From Cercospora beticola (taxonomy: Eukaryota > Ascomycota > Dothideomycetes > Mycosphaerellales > Mycosphaerellaceae): a stretch of DNA of 64,000 nucleotides. The stretch spans positions 3,286,001 to 3,350,000 of the forward strand of contig NC_088938.1 of NCBI RefSeq assembly GCF_033473495.1, given 5' to 3'. The translations under genes were made by a program, and so were the position numbers. Under the pieces are notes generated by a model, which saw only the letters and a program-made list of their open reading frames with translations, did no database searches and had not been told where the DNA came from. This document shows, in pieces, positions 4,905-59,443 of the stretch; the stretch's first letter is position 1; each line of letters begins with the position of its first letter.

Positions 4905-5327
4905 GAGAATCGGGATCGCTGGCAGGCCTTTCGTGAACGCCGACTTGACGATGAATTCTCCAGGCACAACTAGTGCTATCAAGTTCGCAAGAAATCGTTT
5001 TGGCAAGAGGTCTTCTCCCTTGACTGTTACGAGGCATGGGTGACAGAACTCTTCGCCTTCACAGAATCACGACAGTAAACGCTTTGCAGAAAAACGAGTG
5101 GCCATAAACCCCCAAGGCTAAGCCTTCTAGCATCAATCTGTCAAACTACAATACAAAATCGAAGACGCAGTTCACGAAAACAACAATGCATCACGACCAT
5201 CTCAAACACAGAGGCAAAAGACCACCCCCAACGCCGACATCGGCTCCACCCCAACATCAAACCATCATATACGTTTCACAAGCTCAAACCTCATCACGTG
5301 ATACACCTTTCATGGGTTCTATGATGT

Positions 5328-5385
5328 GTAAGCCAGTTAACCGAACCAAATAATTTCGTGTTCGACCCCCTGACTTGTGATCCAG
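5328..5385 (+). other. GT-AG intron-like insertion in the D arm of tRNA-Gln (58 nt)
   Basis: Starts GTAAGCC, carries CTGAC at 5370-5374, and ends TCCAG. These are donor, branch site and acceptor as in the mRNA introns of neighbouring genes. It lies between tRNA positions 13 and 14. Removing it restores the D stem and the loop AGTGGTTA exactly, and it interrupts the A box. Confidence 0.85.
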
Positions 5386-5458
5386 AGTGGTTATCATTCC
5401 AGATTTTGAGAAGGACTGCTCTGTCTGTCCGATATTGAAAGCTTCTGGCAACCCCGGT

Positions 5459-5510
5459 GTAAGGCTTCCTGATATCCTTGTGTCTTGTTTCCAAGCTAAC
5501 GGTGTTGTAG
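5459..5510 (+). other. GT-AG intron-like insertion in the T loop of tRNA-Gln (52 nt)
   Basis: Starts GTAAGGC, has a perfect CTAAC branch site at 5496-5500, and ends GTTGTAG. It separates T54 from T55. Excision restores TTCGAAT closed by CCCGG/CCGGG, and the insertion splits the B box. Confidence 0.85.
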
Positions 5511-5543
5511 TCGAATCCGGGTAGGACCTCATTCGTTGCATGA

Positions 5544-5557
5544 TTTTTTTGTTTTTT
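5544..5557 (+). terminator. Pol III-type T-run terminator of tRNA-Gln
   Basis: Seven Ts at 5544-5550, then G and six Ts at 5552-5557, 15 bases after the discriminator. This is a strong Pol III terminator on the plus strand and supports a Pol III origin for the locus. Confidence 0.7.
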
Positions 5558-10150: not shown

Positions 10151-10307
10151 GTCGCTTTAGCTCACTTGGGAGAGCGCCAGACTGAAGTCTACTTCGGTCG
10201 TCTGCACTGTGCGGTATCTGGAGGTACTGTGGTAAGCATCAACTGGTTGTCCAAATCTTTGAGTGCAGCAATCTAACAGTGTAACAGTTCGATCCACAGA
10301 AGCGACA
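10151..10307 (+). tRNA. tRNA-Phe(GAA) interrupted by two intervening sequences
   Basis: Exonic pieces are 10151-10187, 10216-10231 and 10288-10307. Joined they give exactly 73 nt. The acceptor GTCGCTT pairs perfectly with AAGCGAC over 7 bp. D arm is GCTC/GAGC with loop ACTTGGGA, anticodon stem CCAGA/TCTGG with loop CTGAAGA, anticodon GAA at 10184-10186, T stem CTGTG/CACAG with loop TTCGATC, discriminator A. Apart from the acceptor stem it is nearly identical to yeast tRNA-Phe. The first intron (10188-10215, 28 nt) is at the canonical site after position 37 and contains TTC that can pair with the anticodon. The second insertion (10232-10287, 56 nt) has GT-AG ends and sits between positions 53 and 54. 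A T4 tract follows at 10312. Confidence 0.9.
10232..10287 (+). other. GT-AG intron-like insertion in the T arm of tRNA-Phe (56 nt)
   Basis: Starts GTAAGC, contains CTAAC at 10273-10277, ends AACAG. Removal restores the perfect T arm CTGTG/CACAG. The last G of the insertion recreates GTTCGATCC, so a B-box-like string survives at the 3' junction although the 5' half of the arm is 56 nt away. Confidence 0.87.
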
Positions 10308-33752: not shown

Positions 33753-35393
33753 TCACGTGTTCGCTTGCGACAGTCCCCTTGTATTTATATCCTGGATACC
33801 AACAACATCACCTCTCTTGGCTCGAGCATCTGTCATCGCTGCAATAATAGCCGCCCCAATCCCAGATCCATCCTCAGCGCTTGTAATAGTGATTGGGTCT
33901 TCCTTGCGGTCTTCAGGCCAGTCAAGAACTTCTGCCATTGCTTGAGCCCATCGAGCTTTGAACTTTGGATCTGTCACGAAGTCAGCAGAATGACTCATAT
34001 ATGAGGATATCGATGCACTTACGCTTGTTTGCCACGCTCCCATCGGCAGCAATGTGCCCGGAAGTAATGCCTTTCTTACGACAGATCGCGGCAACGCCGC
34101 AGCTACATAACCTGGCTCCTCGAGTAGCAATTACTTCGGCTAGGCGTCTGGCGAGGTTGAGCTCATCGTCCGAAATGTTAATATCGAGTTGCTTTTGAAA
34201 TGCTTGCCGTGTCTCTGCGCGTTCACTGGAGTCGTCATCCTCGATGAGAGAAAGGAAGCCAGTATCGAGCACATATGGTTCTTTAATCTTGTCGCCGTCT
34301 TGGCCCGTGAACAGTAGGCCTTGCTCATATAGGTCAAGAATGGCGAGCCTGAACATTTCACCCATGTAGTGCCCTGCACTGAGCTTCTCGAATGTCTGCT
34401 CTCCTGGCCTGGGTGAAGCCTCGTCGATCTGGAGATCATACTTGTTCCGTGGCAGAATATGGTGGCCGTTATCGAATGCCCCATACTCACAATTGATAGC
34501 CATTTGGCCATCGGCAGGTAGATCGGTCCTTTTGAGTTTCGGTATTGATCCAACGTCTTCCATGTACGCGGCATTGCATCCCGTACCAAAGATGGCCCCA
34601 ATCCTGGTCTCCGAATCGTGATATGATGACGCGATCATTGCTCCTGTGGTGTCGTTGATGAGCGCAACCAGCCGTATGGGCAAGTCTCTTTTCTTAAGAG
34701 CTTGTTTTAGCTGAGCGGCCACATCTTCTCCCTCGACACCAGAAATATCAAGGCCTTTGGTCCATGTTTGAAGGATGCCGTGATCGACATACTGCTGGGA
34801 AGCCGGATATGAGAATTTGAAGCCAAACGGAATGGGCTCCTTATTGGAACTGCCAAGCTCGTGCTTGTCAATGAATTTCGCCAAGCAGTCAGCGATGTAA
34901 GACCATAACTGTTCAGCGTTGCCACTTTTGATATCGTCGGAAATTTTGTACTGGTCCTGAGTGACATCGACGTCATGCTCGCGTCCATGAAGCTCGTTCC
35001 AGCAGACTCGTAAATTCGTGCCACCGAGGTCCAAAGTGAGGTACGATCCAGTCTCCTGCCCCGTTGGCCATCCCATGACCCAGGTAACATTCATGGGCTG
35101 TATTATCGATCAACTTCATGATGTATCAGCTTTGCTTATTCGGCGTACAATGTTCTGTTCATCTCGTTGTAGTCCTGCTATGTTTCAGCTTAGGGAAGAA
35201 AGTCGTCGTCTTGCTGACCCTTACCATCTTCGAGTTCCTCCTGGAACCTCGCCACTATCTGCTTCAATCTTGATGCATCAATGATAAAGTCACTCTCGAT
35301 CCGCCTCAAGTTTTGTTCGAGCTCATCTACTTGCGCACCTCGAGGTGTGGTCGTTTCAGCCGTGCGGCCATGCACTAGGGTGTCAAATGACAT
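33753..35393 (-). CDS. hexokinase family sugar kinase (495 aa, four exons)
   Basis: Exons (minus) are 35225-35393, 35149-35174 (only 26 nt), 34023-35097 and 33753-33970. Introns are 50, 51 and 52 nt with GT-AG ends. The splice gives EELEDGLQRDEQNIPMNVTW, the expected hexokinase N-terminus. Key motifs: LDLGGTNLRVCW (phosphate loop), FGFKFSYPASQ, ALINDTTGAMIASSYHD (catalytic Asp in NDTTG), IGAIFGTGCNAAYME, INCEYGAFDN, and EDGSGIGAAIIAAM near the C-terminus. The enzyme phosphorylates glucose or related hexoses using ATP in the cytosol. It could be a hexokinase, a glucokinase or a regulatory paralog; all catalytic motifs are present. Confidence 0.92.
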
Positions 35394-38300
35394 CCTGAGT
35401 GCAGCGAAATGAGATGCAGGAACGAGGACGAATGCAAAGCTGTCTCACTCCAAGATAAAAACCTACCTTTATCCGAGCGCTTCTCAAAAGCATTGACAAA
35501 ACCGGCTGCCTCGCGGCCACATACTGCGGCACGCTCACATTTATTGTTGTTTGACGTCACTATTCGAGCTCCCCGGTTCAGGATGAGCAGAGACCGAAGG
35601 TGATTGTCGTAAGGTCAGCCCACGTCTTCACGAGCTTCTACGATATCGAAAACCTGGCTCCACTAGGAATTGTCTGCCATGACCAGAGACTTGGTCACAG
35701 GCCGAGTTGTTGACAAACCCTGGAAAGTCTTGGCTGGATTGGCAGCAATCATGCATCCCGCATGTCTCTGATTGAGAACTTGCGTGAAAGCAGAAGTGTT
35801 CGGAGACGCGTCCGCTGAGCGATTCGAGGTCGAAATGAGCAGGTGTAGCCATTGCAGCGGTGGTCGCCAGCCTTGGTCAACCTCGTGACTGCTGACATTC
35901 TAGGGGCACTTCTGTTCATCCGACGATGACGAACCCTATTTGGAAGTCTTCTGAAATTGAGCGGTGCCCAGAGGCATCTTCGGAGATACGGTATGAAGAC
36001 TCGGACAGGCTGTGAAGGACTGTTGTTCAAGTACGGAAGCAGGTGCAGGCGCAGGTGAAGGACGGAGGACGGAGAACGGGAAGACGGGATTAGTCAGCAC
36101 GCTAACTTCGCTGTTGCCAAAATCTTCTCCTGCAAAAATCCTTCCAATGTCCTACACACCACCACGACAACGAAATTTTCCTGCTGCGTCCGGCCGGCAT
36201 CTCGCCTGAGCAAGCGACATCCGAAGGATGGTTTGCGGACGGCAGATCGGAGTGCTTGCCAATTGCTAGGCAGTAGGATGGACCAAGAAGGTGAGCATGC
36301 AAACTTTCACCCACCAGCACCATAAACCATCACATCACATGATGATTTCCATACAATTTTTTACTATTTCTGGTACCTCTAATGTTCAAAGCCTTCTGGG
36401 CTTAATGCATTCAACGGACTTCTGATCACATCGATTCCTCCTGCACACTCTGGACGAGCATGGCTCAAGTGAAAGCACGAGAAGCTGACTGGCGTCGCTC
36501 TAGATCTCCGCTAGATTCGGCATCCAATGACAAGTGGTATGCACGATCTTTCATCTCGTCGTTGCAAGGCAATGCCGCGGAGAAAGCTCGTGTCTTCCTC
36601 GTATCTGCGAAGAAGTAACCAGGGCTTCCTCATGTCTGAGGATGATTACTACTATCACGAGAGCTCATTCAGTAATCAACCTTGGCGGTAGTGCACTGCA
36701 CTGAGCTCGAATCAGGCATATTGAGAAGCGTATGCACGGAGGACTACACGCAGTTTACCTGCTCTCACATTCACGACTGGGCCGCGTCGAGACACGCTAC
36801 GTCGATGGCGCGCGACCCGCATTGCATGGCATGAGTTGTATCAGGTCAGATTGCAACAAGCGCCTGCTGTAAAGCGTCGCAGAGTCTCCTTTGCATCGGA
36901 CAGCATGAGCCGTACGAGTATGAGCACGTCGCTGCATTTGGATAACGCATACATGTTTCACCGCTGACGTACAGCTACAGCTTCGCATGCCTTCGCGATG
37001 CCTGGCCCACGTGTGAGGGTGGAAGTCAGAAGCGTGAGTGTCTCTTGATTGTCGGACACATTTAGCGCCCGCGTCACGTGAACTTGGCGACTTGCAGTTT
37101 CGATGAACAACTTCGAAATCGCTACGTTTGAGCTAGAAACTCGGGAAAACTGATGCAGAGTGATTAGGAACCCTCAAAAGCAGTGCCAAAATCCCCACCC
37201 CCCTGCAGAGGTTTCCTGTAGGTGCAGAAAGGAAGTAACCATCAACTTGAGGTTTAAGATTTTGTGGCGTCACTTCCCGTGTCCGACAATCAAGACAAAC
37301 TGAAGCGTGAACCCATGGCCATCCTCATTTCGGAGGATAAAGATCCCCATGGCGCTACGGTTGTCGGCACTCCATCACAGGCGACGCTTCCGGGCTGCGT
37401 GGTCGCGATTTGCTGTGGACAGCGTCGAATTATGATGGTACGCGCGGCGTCTCAGCAACGCAGCGTTTATCGCATTGTGAGTCTGCTTTAGCGCCGGTCA
37501 CGTATGCAGTGAGGATGCAATGGAAGGTGAAGCAAAGAGTCAAGGCCGGCATGCCGGTGGAGGAGGCGGGAGAGAATCGGAATGTTCGAGCCCGCCGCTT
37601 ACCCGCAGAACAAAGAAATGCACCAGCATTGATCTTGGCCATCTCTTGTGCAGCTGCCATCGCACGACATGCACGACATGCGATCGCAACTGTGCCATAC
37701 CACGGCCTTGCGCTTTGGCGCCGTTGGCAGAAGCGTCGGCGTCAAAGTGGACACGCGCTCTGCGATCTGCAGCTAAATGCGGAAGAAAACAGACAAGCTC
37801 TCGACTTGGAACTTGGCTCTCACGGCAAGGCTTCGCACGAATCAATCTAGACGCAGACCTGCGGAGTCGATGGCCGTGCTGCTCTGCTCTTTGCATTCCA
37901 CATCGGCTCGGCCAGTACACAATGTCGCCGCCCGCCACACCGCAGGCCCCGGTCACGCGCGCGGCGTGCAGGCGACACATGCCAGCGACGGCGACGACGG
38001 TGAACAAGTACACGTAGACGTCCCACATGGTCGTGGACGAACAATTGCCTCGCTACGCCAGTTTCTGCAAAGCGCAGGCGAGACGACCAGCGCCCAGCGA
38101 TCAGCCTTTGTGTCGCGCAGGTCCAGCCCGTTGCGCACCGTTGTGCAATTTCTTGGATCCACTTGATTGGGCGTACCTCTTATTAGTCGTTTCAGCCTCC
38201 CTCTCCTCGCGGACCCCCCGTTCACTCCAACGACCCATCCGGAGACACCACACATTATACGTTGCTGTCCTGCAGTGACGCTCACGCTCGTTCACCTGCA

Positions 38301-57379: not shown

Positions 57380-59443
57380 ATGGTCTCTCTTGCGGCTCCC
57401 GCCGGCGCTATGCCGCCGCCACCTACTCCGCTCGCCAAGCGCCCTACGATGGGTCTGAAACGCGACTCTTCTTACCTGGACACAGACGACGAGGCTGGCC
57501 TCTCACAAACAACGAAACGGCTCAAAGTCGAATTCAGCGACGATGTGGAGGTGAGGATCATTGGCGCAGACACGGAGAAGACCTTCGCATGGGTCAAGGA
57601 GAAAGTGCGCGCAGCAATTCATGGCCACCTCGCACCTGGTGACGCCCAAGACGATGCCGAATATGCGAAACTACTGGAACTGCTGGGGGAAGATGCGTAC
57701 TCGGATGATGCCCCGACTTCTAATCTCCTCAAGAAGTACGTTCTGGCCATTGGCTCGCATGTGACAGTCCTCGGGCAATGCAGCAAGCTGGTCCTCGCTG
57801 TGCTTGACCTCTCGTGGCTCGGACGAGACGAGGAATTCGTGCGCATCTACGAAGAGTTCCTGCGCGTGCTCGCTACTACACATGGCAAATTCACGTTTCC
57901 CTTGATGGAGAGACTTGTTGCGAACTTCGAAAGGCTGCCAGCTTCGATGGGCAGACTGCCAGGAGACGATATCATTCACCGAGCGACAATGTTTGACCGA
58001 CTGCATAGTGTCATCGAGACTATCATATCGCACGTCCCTCCAGCCAGTAGTGCACTACTGCGCACGCTACGACATCAGTTCCCCAACGACCTCTCTACTG
58101 CGAAAGGCTACCTCCAATACCAACGACATATGCTCCGATTGGCCGAGGCGACACCGGAGATCAAAAGCGAGATCATGTCCTTGATTATACAGCGCTTGGT
58201 CGATATAGATGTTCAGATCCAGCAAGATCTCGAGGATTTGGAGGACGAAGCGGAGGAGAGCTTACTCCAGCGCGACCCAAGACTGCCGGGCGGGGAGCAA
58301 GAGGATGATGAGGACAGCGACGACGAATCCGTGTCTGAATCGGAAATGACCACAACCGACGAGGAGATGAGGTTGAAAGAGCTTCGGTTGAAAGTCGCAA
58401 AGATGGATGGCACTCAGGATCTGCTGTTTGAGCACTACCAATCGGCCTTCACGCCCAATTCTAGCCCGCGGACCAATGAGGCATACCAGGAGCTACTGTC
58501 GCATTTCAACAACTTCATCATGCCACATCGATCGAGACACGCGCAGTTCCTTTTGTTTCACTTCTCGCAGTACTCGTCAGCATACTCGGAAGACTTCATC
58601 GACCGGTTCATCAGGCGCACTACCGCTCGAGATGTCGCAGCCCCGCTGCGCTTGCAGGCATGTGCTTATGTGGCAAGCTTCACCGCGCGTGCTTCGAATT
58701 TACCAACGCATTTGGTTCAGAGAGTCGTGAGCGAGCTTGGCTACGTTATGGACGAACTGCGATACATCTACGAACCGCATAGTCAAGGTCCGGACAGAAA
58801 GATGTATGGCATGTATTATGCTATCGCTCAAGCATTGCTTTACATCTTCTGCTTCCGCTGGCGTGACTTGATTGATCGCACCAAGCTGGGAGACATGACC
58901 GAGGAGGATATGATTGCCGAACAGCGAGATCTGCCGTGGATACCTGGTGTCAAGGAGACTTTCAACCGCAACATCACATCAATCCTCAACCCACTGAAGG
59001 TCTGCTCGCCAGCAATCGTGAGCGAATTCGCTAAGATCGCATGGCATTTGCGATTCCTGTACGTCTTCTCTTTGATTGAGCGTAATAAGCGCATTCGACT
59101 GGGTCAAGCACCTCAACTTTACAGTCTTACTGGAGGCATCGAAATTGGCCGAAGAGAAACTGCTTGGGATCGCAAGACTGGCGATTCGCATCATCAACTT
59201 GAAGCGTACTTTCCATTCGACCCATACCACCTTCCCCAAAGTAAGAGATGGATAGAAGGGGAGTTCAACGAATGGGAGCTTCCGCAAGGACTGAAGAATG
59301 ACGAAGAAGACGAGGACGAAGCCAGCGATGAAGAGGAAGATCAGGCAGCTGAGGAGTATGAAAGTGACGACGATTCAATACCGGAAGAGAATTTTGCGGT
59401 GCCCCCGCTTTCCTCGCCAGGAGTTACATTGATTAGCGGATAA
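57380..59443 (+). CDS. RRN3: RRN3, RNA polymerase I transcription initiation factor (687 aa)
   Basis: Starts MVSLAAPAGAMPPPPTPL and LKRDSSYLDTDDE. The body is the HEAT-like Rrn3 fold: LAIGSHVTVLGQCSKLVLAVLDLSWLGR (broken at VLG), YLQYQRHMLRLAEATPEI, an acidic stretch (about 345-375), NNFIMPHRSRHAQFLLFHFSQ, ALLYIFCFRWRDL, and NPLKVCSPAIVSEFAKIAWHLRFLYVFSL near residue 600. An acidic C-terminus follows. Rrn3/TIF-IA binds Pol I and the core factor and couples rRNA synthesis to growth. Single exon, no lesion. Confidence 0.94.
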   Translation: MVSLAAPAGAMPPPPTPLAKRPTMGLKRDSSYLDTDDEAGLSQTTKRLKVEFSDDVEVRIIGADTEKTFAWVKEKVRAAIHGHLAPGDAQDDAEYAKLLELLGEDAYSDDAPTSNLLKKYVLAIGSHVTVLGQCSKLVLAVLDLSWLGRDEEFVRIYEEFLRVLATTHGKFTFPLMERLVANFERLPASMGRLPGDDIIHRATMFDRLHSVIETIISHVPPASSALLRTLRHQFPNDLSTAKGYLQYQRHMLRLAEATPEIKSEIMSLIIQRLVDIDVQIQQDLEDLEDEAEESLLQRDPRLPGGEQEDDEDSDDESVSESEMTTTDEEMRLKELRLKVAKMDGTQDLLFEHYQSAFTPNSSPRTNEAYQELLSHFNNFIMPHRSRHAQFLLFHFSQYSSAYSEDFIDRFIRRTTARDVAAPLRLQACAYVASFTARASNLPTHLVQRVVSELGYVMDELRYIYEPHSQGPDRKMYGMYYAIAQALLYIFCFRWRDLIDRTKLGDMTEEDMIAEQRDLPWIPGVKETFNRNITSILNPLKVCSPAIVSEFAKIAWHLRFLYVFSLIERNKRIRLGQAPQLYSLTGGIEIGRRETAWDRKTGDSHHQLEAYFPFDPYHLPQSKRWIEGEFNEWELPQGLKNDEEDEDEASDEEEDQAAEEYESDDDSIPEENFAVPPLSSPGVTLISG

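Follow-up and report, generated by a model that had tools for sequence, protein, structure and literature searches.

The tRNA-Gln(UUG) gene described here is most probably (roughly nine chances in ten) a functional nuclear gene that carries two putative U2-type spliceosomal introns together with one classical tRNA intron, and it would be one of at least 27 such genes in the genome of Cercospora beticola. The gene lies in the window, i.e., the whole stretch of DNA analysed (64,000 nt), which is bases 3286001–3350000 of contig 4 in an assembly of 36.07 Mb and 10 contigs. Its parts and those of a second split gene of the window, tRNA-Phe(GAA), are listed in Table 1.

Table 1. Parts of the two split tRNA genes of the window and flanking elements of the tRNA-Gln gene (positions within the window).
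Feature	Location	Strand	Basis
TATA-like element (ATATA), about 44 nt upstream of the Gln gene	5267..5271	+	
tRNA-Gln(TTG) exon 1 (positions 1–13)	5315..5327	+	ARAGORN on joined exons, split-gene finder
tRNA-Gln GT-AG intron 1, 58 nt, at positions 13/14, inside the A box	5328..5385	+	motifs and motif-free fit
tRNA-Gln exon 2 (positions 14–37, anticodon TTG), 24 nt	5386..5409	+	ARAGORN, exon search
tRNA-Gln canonical anticodon-loop intron, 33 nt, at 37/38	5410..5442	+	ends not GT-AG
tRNA-Gln exon 3	5443..5458	+	ARAGORN on joined exons
tRNA-Gln GT-AG intron, 52 nt, at positions 54/55, inside the B box	5459..5510	+	motifs; site common to the second Gln(TTG) gene
tRNA-Gln exon 4, discriminator T	5511..5529	+	ARAGORN on joined exons
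T7 G T6 run, pol III-type terminator, after the Gln gene	5544..5557	+	
tRNA-Phe(GAA) exon 1 (second split tRNA gene of the window, 10151–10307)	10151..10187	+	split-gene finder
tRNA-Phe anticodon intron, 28 nt	10188..10215	+	split-gene finder
tRNA-Phe exon 2	10216..10231	+	split-gene finder
tRNA-Phe GT-AG intron, 56 nt, directly before the T loop (B box); GTAAGC..CTAAC..ACAG	10232..10287	+	
tRNA-Phe exon 3	10288..10307	+	split-gene finder

Structure and copies of the split tRNA-Gln gene

An earlier note on this DNA had claimed that four exonic pieces within 5315–5529 yield a 72-nt tRNA-Gln(TTG) once three insertions are removed, two of them of mRNA type. The coordinates, lengths, and GT-AG motifs turned out to be exactly so, and ARAGORN calls the joined 72-mer, which forms a complete cloverleaf, tRNA-Gln(ttg). 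The 33-nt middle insertion does occupy the canonical tRNA intron site after position 37, and the two GT-AG introns at 13/14 and 54/55 do interrupt the A and B boxes. The branch motifs CTGAC and CTAAC that had been noticed near the AG are present as well. The first intron reads GTAAGC..CTGAC..CCAG, with the presumed branch A at 5373 followed by 12 nt, and the last one reads GTAAGG..GCTAAC..GTAG, with the presumed branch A at 5499 followed by 11 nt.

A standard tRNA call on the whole window gives nothing, and ARAGORN makes no call on the unspliced 415 nt around it, even when introns are allowed. If only the anticodon intron is kept, ARAGORN gives a different, mis-set tRNA-Ser(tga). We used a split-gene finder, which removes 0–2 introns of the form GT[AG]NG..branch..[ACT]AG (intron length of 42–120 nt, branch distance of 7–20) and an optional anticodon intron and then scores the cloverleaf. 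It reports the Gln locus when both GT-AG introns are removed and does not report it when none or one is removed.

Uninterrupted functional Gln(TTG) copies elsewhere in the genome, together with an absence of spliced reads from this locus, had been named beforehand as what would make the gene a disrupted relic. A search of the whole assembly with exon 2 (24 nt, ≤3 mismatches) gave two matches, the window gene itself and C5:42090–42113. In the second Gln gene (locus L116), GT-AG introns interrupt position 4/5 (52 nt) and the T-loop site that is split in the window gene (54 nt); it also contains a 29-nt anticodon intron, and its spliced sequence is a complete tRNA-Gln(TTG). Thus, no uninterrupted Gln(UUG) gene was found in the assembly by the exon pattern at ≤3 mismatches, a pattern that finds itself and is blind to copies with more mismatches or with an intron within that exon. 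The mature 72-mer used as a DNA query gave no match in a search that had no positive control and missed even the exact 24-nt exon. A pattern of the split T loop matched the two Gln genes and nothing else (one match in the reversed control). The second gene, with its own pair of GT-AG introns and an anticodon intron, supports at the level of sequence the earlier proposal that one transcript would need both the spliceosome and the tRNA endonuclease.

The exon searches for uninterrupted copies covered Gln(UUG), Phe, and Cys. The Phe and Cys exon patterns (≤3 mismatches) found two genes each, and all of these are split. When spliced, the window Phe gene is identical to the other Phe gene (L066). 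All six genes (two Gln(UUG), two Phe, and two Cys) read as also having an anticodon intron. There was no match to 5.8S rRNA in the assembly, so the assembly may lack some genes; the rDNA may have been left out.

Split tRNA genes across the genome

We applied the split-gene finder to both strands of the window and 60 loci (494,130 nt), and every place it flagged reads as a tRNA gene. The window flags are the Gln and Phe genes. Besides the tRNA matches and pattern matches for which the loci had been chosen, the flags are these two, L004 938–1033, L048 841–996, L033, and L038, all of which read as tRNAs; the flagged loci L033 and L038 contain the B-box match that brought them in. In 640,000 nt (one strand) of sequence obtained by Markov shuffling of the window, there were 0 flags. 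The Rfam tRNA model gave 44 matches at E up to 10, three of which form a mitochondrial-like cluster. When the 41 nuclear matches were read, 15 of them were seen to have GT-AG introns, and the other 26 showed none. A further 12 split and 4 unsplit genes came from the finder, the patterns, and the exon searches. The totals are 27 split nuclear tRNA genes with 34 GT-AG introns (30 of them in 26 genes; the other four are one additional intron in each of the two Ile(AAT) copies and a pair in the second Cys gene) and 30 unsplit genes. With 27 split genes found, the idea of the Gln gene as a lone oddity was ruled out.

The split genes present in several copies are those of Gln(TTG), Phe, Cys, Ile(AAT), and iMet (two each) and of Thr(AGT) and Val(AAC) (three each). 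Single split genes were found for Leu(CAG), Leu(CAA), Ser(AGA), Ser(TGA), Ala(AGC), Ala(TGC), Arg(CCT), Arg(TCT), and Asp. The remaining two, L030 and L073, belong to one family whose anticodon is not assigned and whose long anticodon-loop introns are nearly identical between the two genes. Seven genes carry two GT-AG introns: both Gln genes, Arg(TCT), both Ile(AAT) copies, the second Cys gene, and L073. The introns interrupt the acceptor arm, the D arm, and the T arm, and they also occur in the variable region and at the anticodon-arm base. Copies without GT-AG introns exist for Val(AAC), Ser(AGA), Ala(AGC), and Asp, so splicing need not be obligatory for these tRNAs. A third iMet copy (L004 938–1033) has an anticodon intron only and no GT-AG intron.

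Several tRNA-like loci deserve separate mention. The third iMet gene is adjoined by a tRNA with the anticodon GAT (Ile) at L004 1501–1572; this anticodon is unusual for a eukaryotic nucleus. L018 and L080 contain tRNA-like genes whose anticodon loop seems to be without T33. The mitochondrial-like, A/T-rich tRNA cluster (L013, L021, and L024; G000 C2:3502591–3503121) lies within a chromosome-size contig and may be a mitochondrial insertion or an assembly join.

The 27 split and 30 unsplit genes are a biased sample. Only 62 of 905 candidates were scored in the tRNA family search, which overlooks some tRNAs that have an anticodon intron only (L047, L103, and L115); thus, the census is incomplete. 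The finder misses several unsplit tRNAs; Ala(TGC), Cys, Asp (L094), and the L030/L073 family also escaped it and were joined by eye. Three further B-box loci (two in L080 and one in L113) were kept out of the counts. The B-box pattern is not enriched relative to the reversed control (190 versus 201), so most B-box matches are due to chance; 100 of them are listed, and the DNA was read around 30 of them and in 37 further stretches. Among the 41 stretches L075–L115, the finder recognised 6 tRNAs.

Probable spliceosomal nature of the introns

All 34 introns have GT..AG ends and a length of 51–61 nt; 32 of them begin with GT[AG], and two begin with GTT. For the 30 introns of 26 genes, the mean length is 54.5 nt, the acceptors are CAG (23), TAG (4), and AAG (3), and a branch-like motif with 10–14 nt after its A is present in 29, where CTCAT was put on the motif list after the Asp intron had been seen. 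Part of this motif signal comes from the finder itself, which takes no introns other than GT[AG]NG..branch..[ACT]AG; it does not demand the narrow length and branch distance.

For ten introns, we used a motif-free fit, which determines what has to be cut out of a split gene to match a copy uninterrupted at that position. GT..AG was among the 1 to 5 best placements in seven of them (window Gln 13/14, Ala, Asp, Ser, the second Cys gene, L073, and Val L074), and it was the only best placement for window Gln 13/14 and Ala(AGC). The borders of this Gln intron are unique in the fit against the second Gln gene, which is contiguous there (2 mismatches). GT..AG was not the best placement in the other three. 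Two of these are Val introns, which are one base off with 1 mismatch relative to the unsplit Val gene. The third is the 4/5 intron of L116, which otherwise fits its 13-nt reference in a way that would leave a C5–C68 mismatch.

The tRNA introns had also been likened to spliceosomal introns nearby, and one confirmed coding intron of the window, that of hexokinase (33971–34022), bears this out. It is 52 nt long, begins with GTAAGT, contains CTGAC with 11 nt after the A, and ends with CAG. Once this intron is removed, the C-terminal part of the protein is recovered, and this part can be aligned with solved hexokinases as far as residue 417. The coding-intron search of the window gave 14 raw candidates versus 5 in the reversed control; the hexokinase intron was confirmed, and the other 9 are candidates only. 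Thus, the tRNA introns show what is expected of the U2 type, namely a GT 5′ splice site, a branch-like motif, AG, and a host-typical length, with the host form represented by one coding intron. The intron of Ser(AGA) L022 is less certain than the others, because the Rfam model also matches this gene unspliced (50.8 bits) and the acceptor end is weaker.

As for the rest of the window, an Rfam scan finds a C/D box snoRNA of the family Afu_264 at 36335–36427, and the RRN3 protein encoded at 57380–59440 shares 99% identity with its Cercospora berteroae counterpart and 86% with the one from Septoria linicola, which places the DNA in Cercospora (Mycosphaerellaceae, Dothideomycetes). Viral and prokaryote collections gave no match, as expected for a fungus.

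Introns of 52–58 nt are too short to be group I or II self-splicing introns, and an Rfam scan of the window at gathering thresholds found none. It could be supposed that all the extra introns are ectopic bulge-helix-bulge (BHB) introns and thus substrates of the tRNA endonuclease, like those of Crenarchaeota or Cyanidioschyzon, where the intron positions are scattered over the arms in a similar way, according to the available part of PMC4090602. This seems highly improbable. In a simplified test without a positive control, the central 4-bp helix with an outer 3-bp helix was found at 0 of 30 junctions, and the central helix by itself was found at 1 of 30 at the strict offset (about 0.6 expected) and at 2 of 30 over all offsets tried. 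Neither the GT..branch..AG motifs nor the narrow length of 51–61 nt is explained by the endonuclease. Introner-like elements are multiplying spliceosomal introns of fungi, including Mycosphaerellaceae, as described in the available part of PMC4457414. In contrast, the tRNA introns of Cercospora do not form such a family: when all pairs of the 30 introns were compared, the best identity between introns of different tRNAs was 0.69, and near-identical copies at unrelated sites were not found.

Function, transcription, and known systems

Once spliced, the split copies of Phe agree fully in sequence, as do those of Val and those of Thr. Among ten intron pairs compared, the interiors of most are near the shuffled level (0.49–0.57 versus 0.48–0.52); the exceptions are Ile (0.58) and one Val pair (0.77). 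Seven double changes that preserve base pairing are present in three pairs of split copies with differing mature sequences. In iMet, all 8 differences make up four of them, in Cys 4 of 5 differences make up two, and in Gln, with 6 differences along the 72 mature positions, 2 of them make up one. The Gln change, C5–G68 versus G5–C68, affects the acceptor pair that brackets all the introns of the window gene; this change, like its Cys counterpart at that pair, relies on an exon-border base placed by the AG rule. Taken together, the seven double changes point to selection on the spliced product, and for Gln itself this sign consists of that one change. In Ser(AGA), Ala(AGC), and Asp, the mature sequence is the same with and without the intron, so the gain or loss was exact (Ser L022 is the weakest case).

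Such data bear on whether the split genes are dead relics, i.e., old tRNA genes disrupted by intron-like sequence that give no spliced product. A few tRNA-like loci are indeed odd (L004 with its GAT anticodon, L018, and L080). However, all Gln(UUG), Phe, and Cys genes found by the exon searches are split, and the split copies either keep an identical mature sequence or change in compensating pairs, which makes the relic explanation barely credible.

The flanks of the split genes look like those of unsplit tRNA genes. Of the 26 split genes sampled, some with flanks cut short, 18 have TATA or ATAT at −60..−20 and 18 have a run of five or more T within 60 nt downstream. Of the 22 genes taken from the 30 unsplit ones, 16 and 18 do, respectively (background of 10.8% for TATA or ATAT and of 2.9% for the T-run). 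The Gln gene has a T-run and a TATA-like element, as unsplit genes do. It does not have the uninterrupted A and B boxes of a type 2 pol III gene, since introns break them at 13/14 and 54/55; thus, the textbook route fails to explain how pol III is recruited.

The broken boxes, together with the usual occurrence of spliceosomal introns in pol II transcripts, would fit a scheme that differs in the polymerase only: pol II makes long precursors, the spliceosome splices them, and the tRNA is then cut out. We regard this as unlikely, because the TATA-like element and the T-run are about as frequent as in unsplit tRNA genes, and U6 of S. pombe, according to the available part of PMC10484740, is a pol III transcript able to carry an mRNA-type intron. 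Most likely, then, pol III transcribes the Gln gene from the upstream TATA-like element to the T-run. The spliceosome would remove both GT-AG introns, closing the D arm and the T arm. The folded pre-tRNA would then lose its anticodon intron through the endonuclease/ligase pathway, presumably in this order.

tRNA introns are generally regarded as substrates of the tRNA endonuclease or as self-splicing, and the spliceosome as acting mainly on pol II transcripts. In their available text, reviews of tRNA introns describe endonuclease or self-splicing introns, and words starting with "spliceosom" are absent from that text of both (PMC4090602, PMC4390854). According to the same parts of these sources, archaea, Cyanidioschyzon, and nucleomorphs have tRNA introns outside 37/38, up to three per gene, which standard finders miss. 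The presence of several introns per gene outside position 37/38 is shared with Cercospora. However, their introns are of the endonuclease type with BHB junctions, whereas those of Cercospora have GT-AG and branch motifs and showed no BHB in the simplified test. tRNAscan-SE 2.0, in the part of its description at hand, deals with noncanonical introns for archaea (PMC8450103).

Closer parallels exist among fungi. The fission yeast U6 snRNA gene has an mRNA-type intron, which the available text of PMC10484740 attributes to reverse splicing near the catalytic nucleotides; there, one snRNA gene is concerned, whereas in Cercospora it is 27 tRNA genes. The sole U6 match of the Cercospora genome is uninterrupted. 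Lichen-forming fungi have ectopic spliceosomal introns in rDNA (PMC8527467, available part). The likeness lies in short spliceosomal introns in fungal transcripts that are not made by pol II, and the difference is that there the host is pol I rRNA and in Cercospora it is tRNA. Among the matches listed for open-licence literature without preprints, none was found to report that nuclear tRNA genes contain spliceosomal introns, which agrees with the earlier statement that no described case was known to its author; this is not proof of novelty.

To judge from the genes compared here, it is likely that the spliceosome is obligatory for a part of the tRNA set (Phe, Cys, and Gln(UUG)), that two unrelated splicing machines act on one RNA, and that these introns, as an undescribed class of tRNA introns, have spread to a large share of the nuclear tRNA genes, reaching most regions of the cloverleaf. 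Translation would thereby be tied to spliceosome activity. If this is true, essential tRNAs that depend on the spliceosome break the rules both on the removal of tRNA introns and on the substrates of the spliceosome, and spliceosomal introns are able to settle inside pol III promoters. It would also account for the fact that essential tRNAs can escape tRNA finders in genomes of this kind. Finally, these genes would offer a clean system for studying intron gain, with no reading-frame constraint and with copies with and without an intron in one genome.
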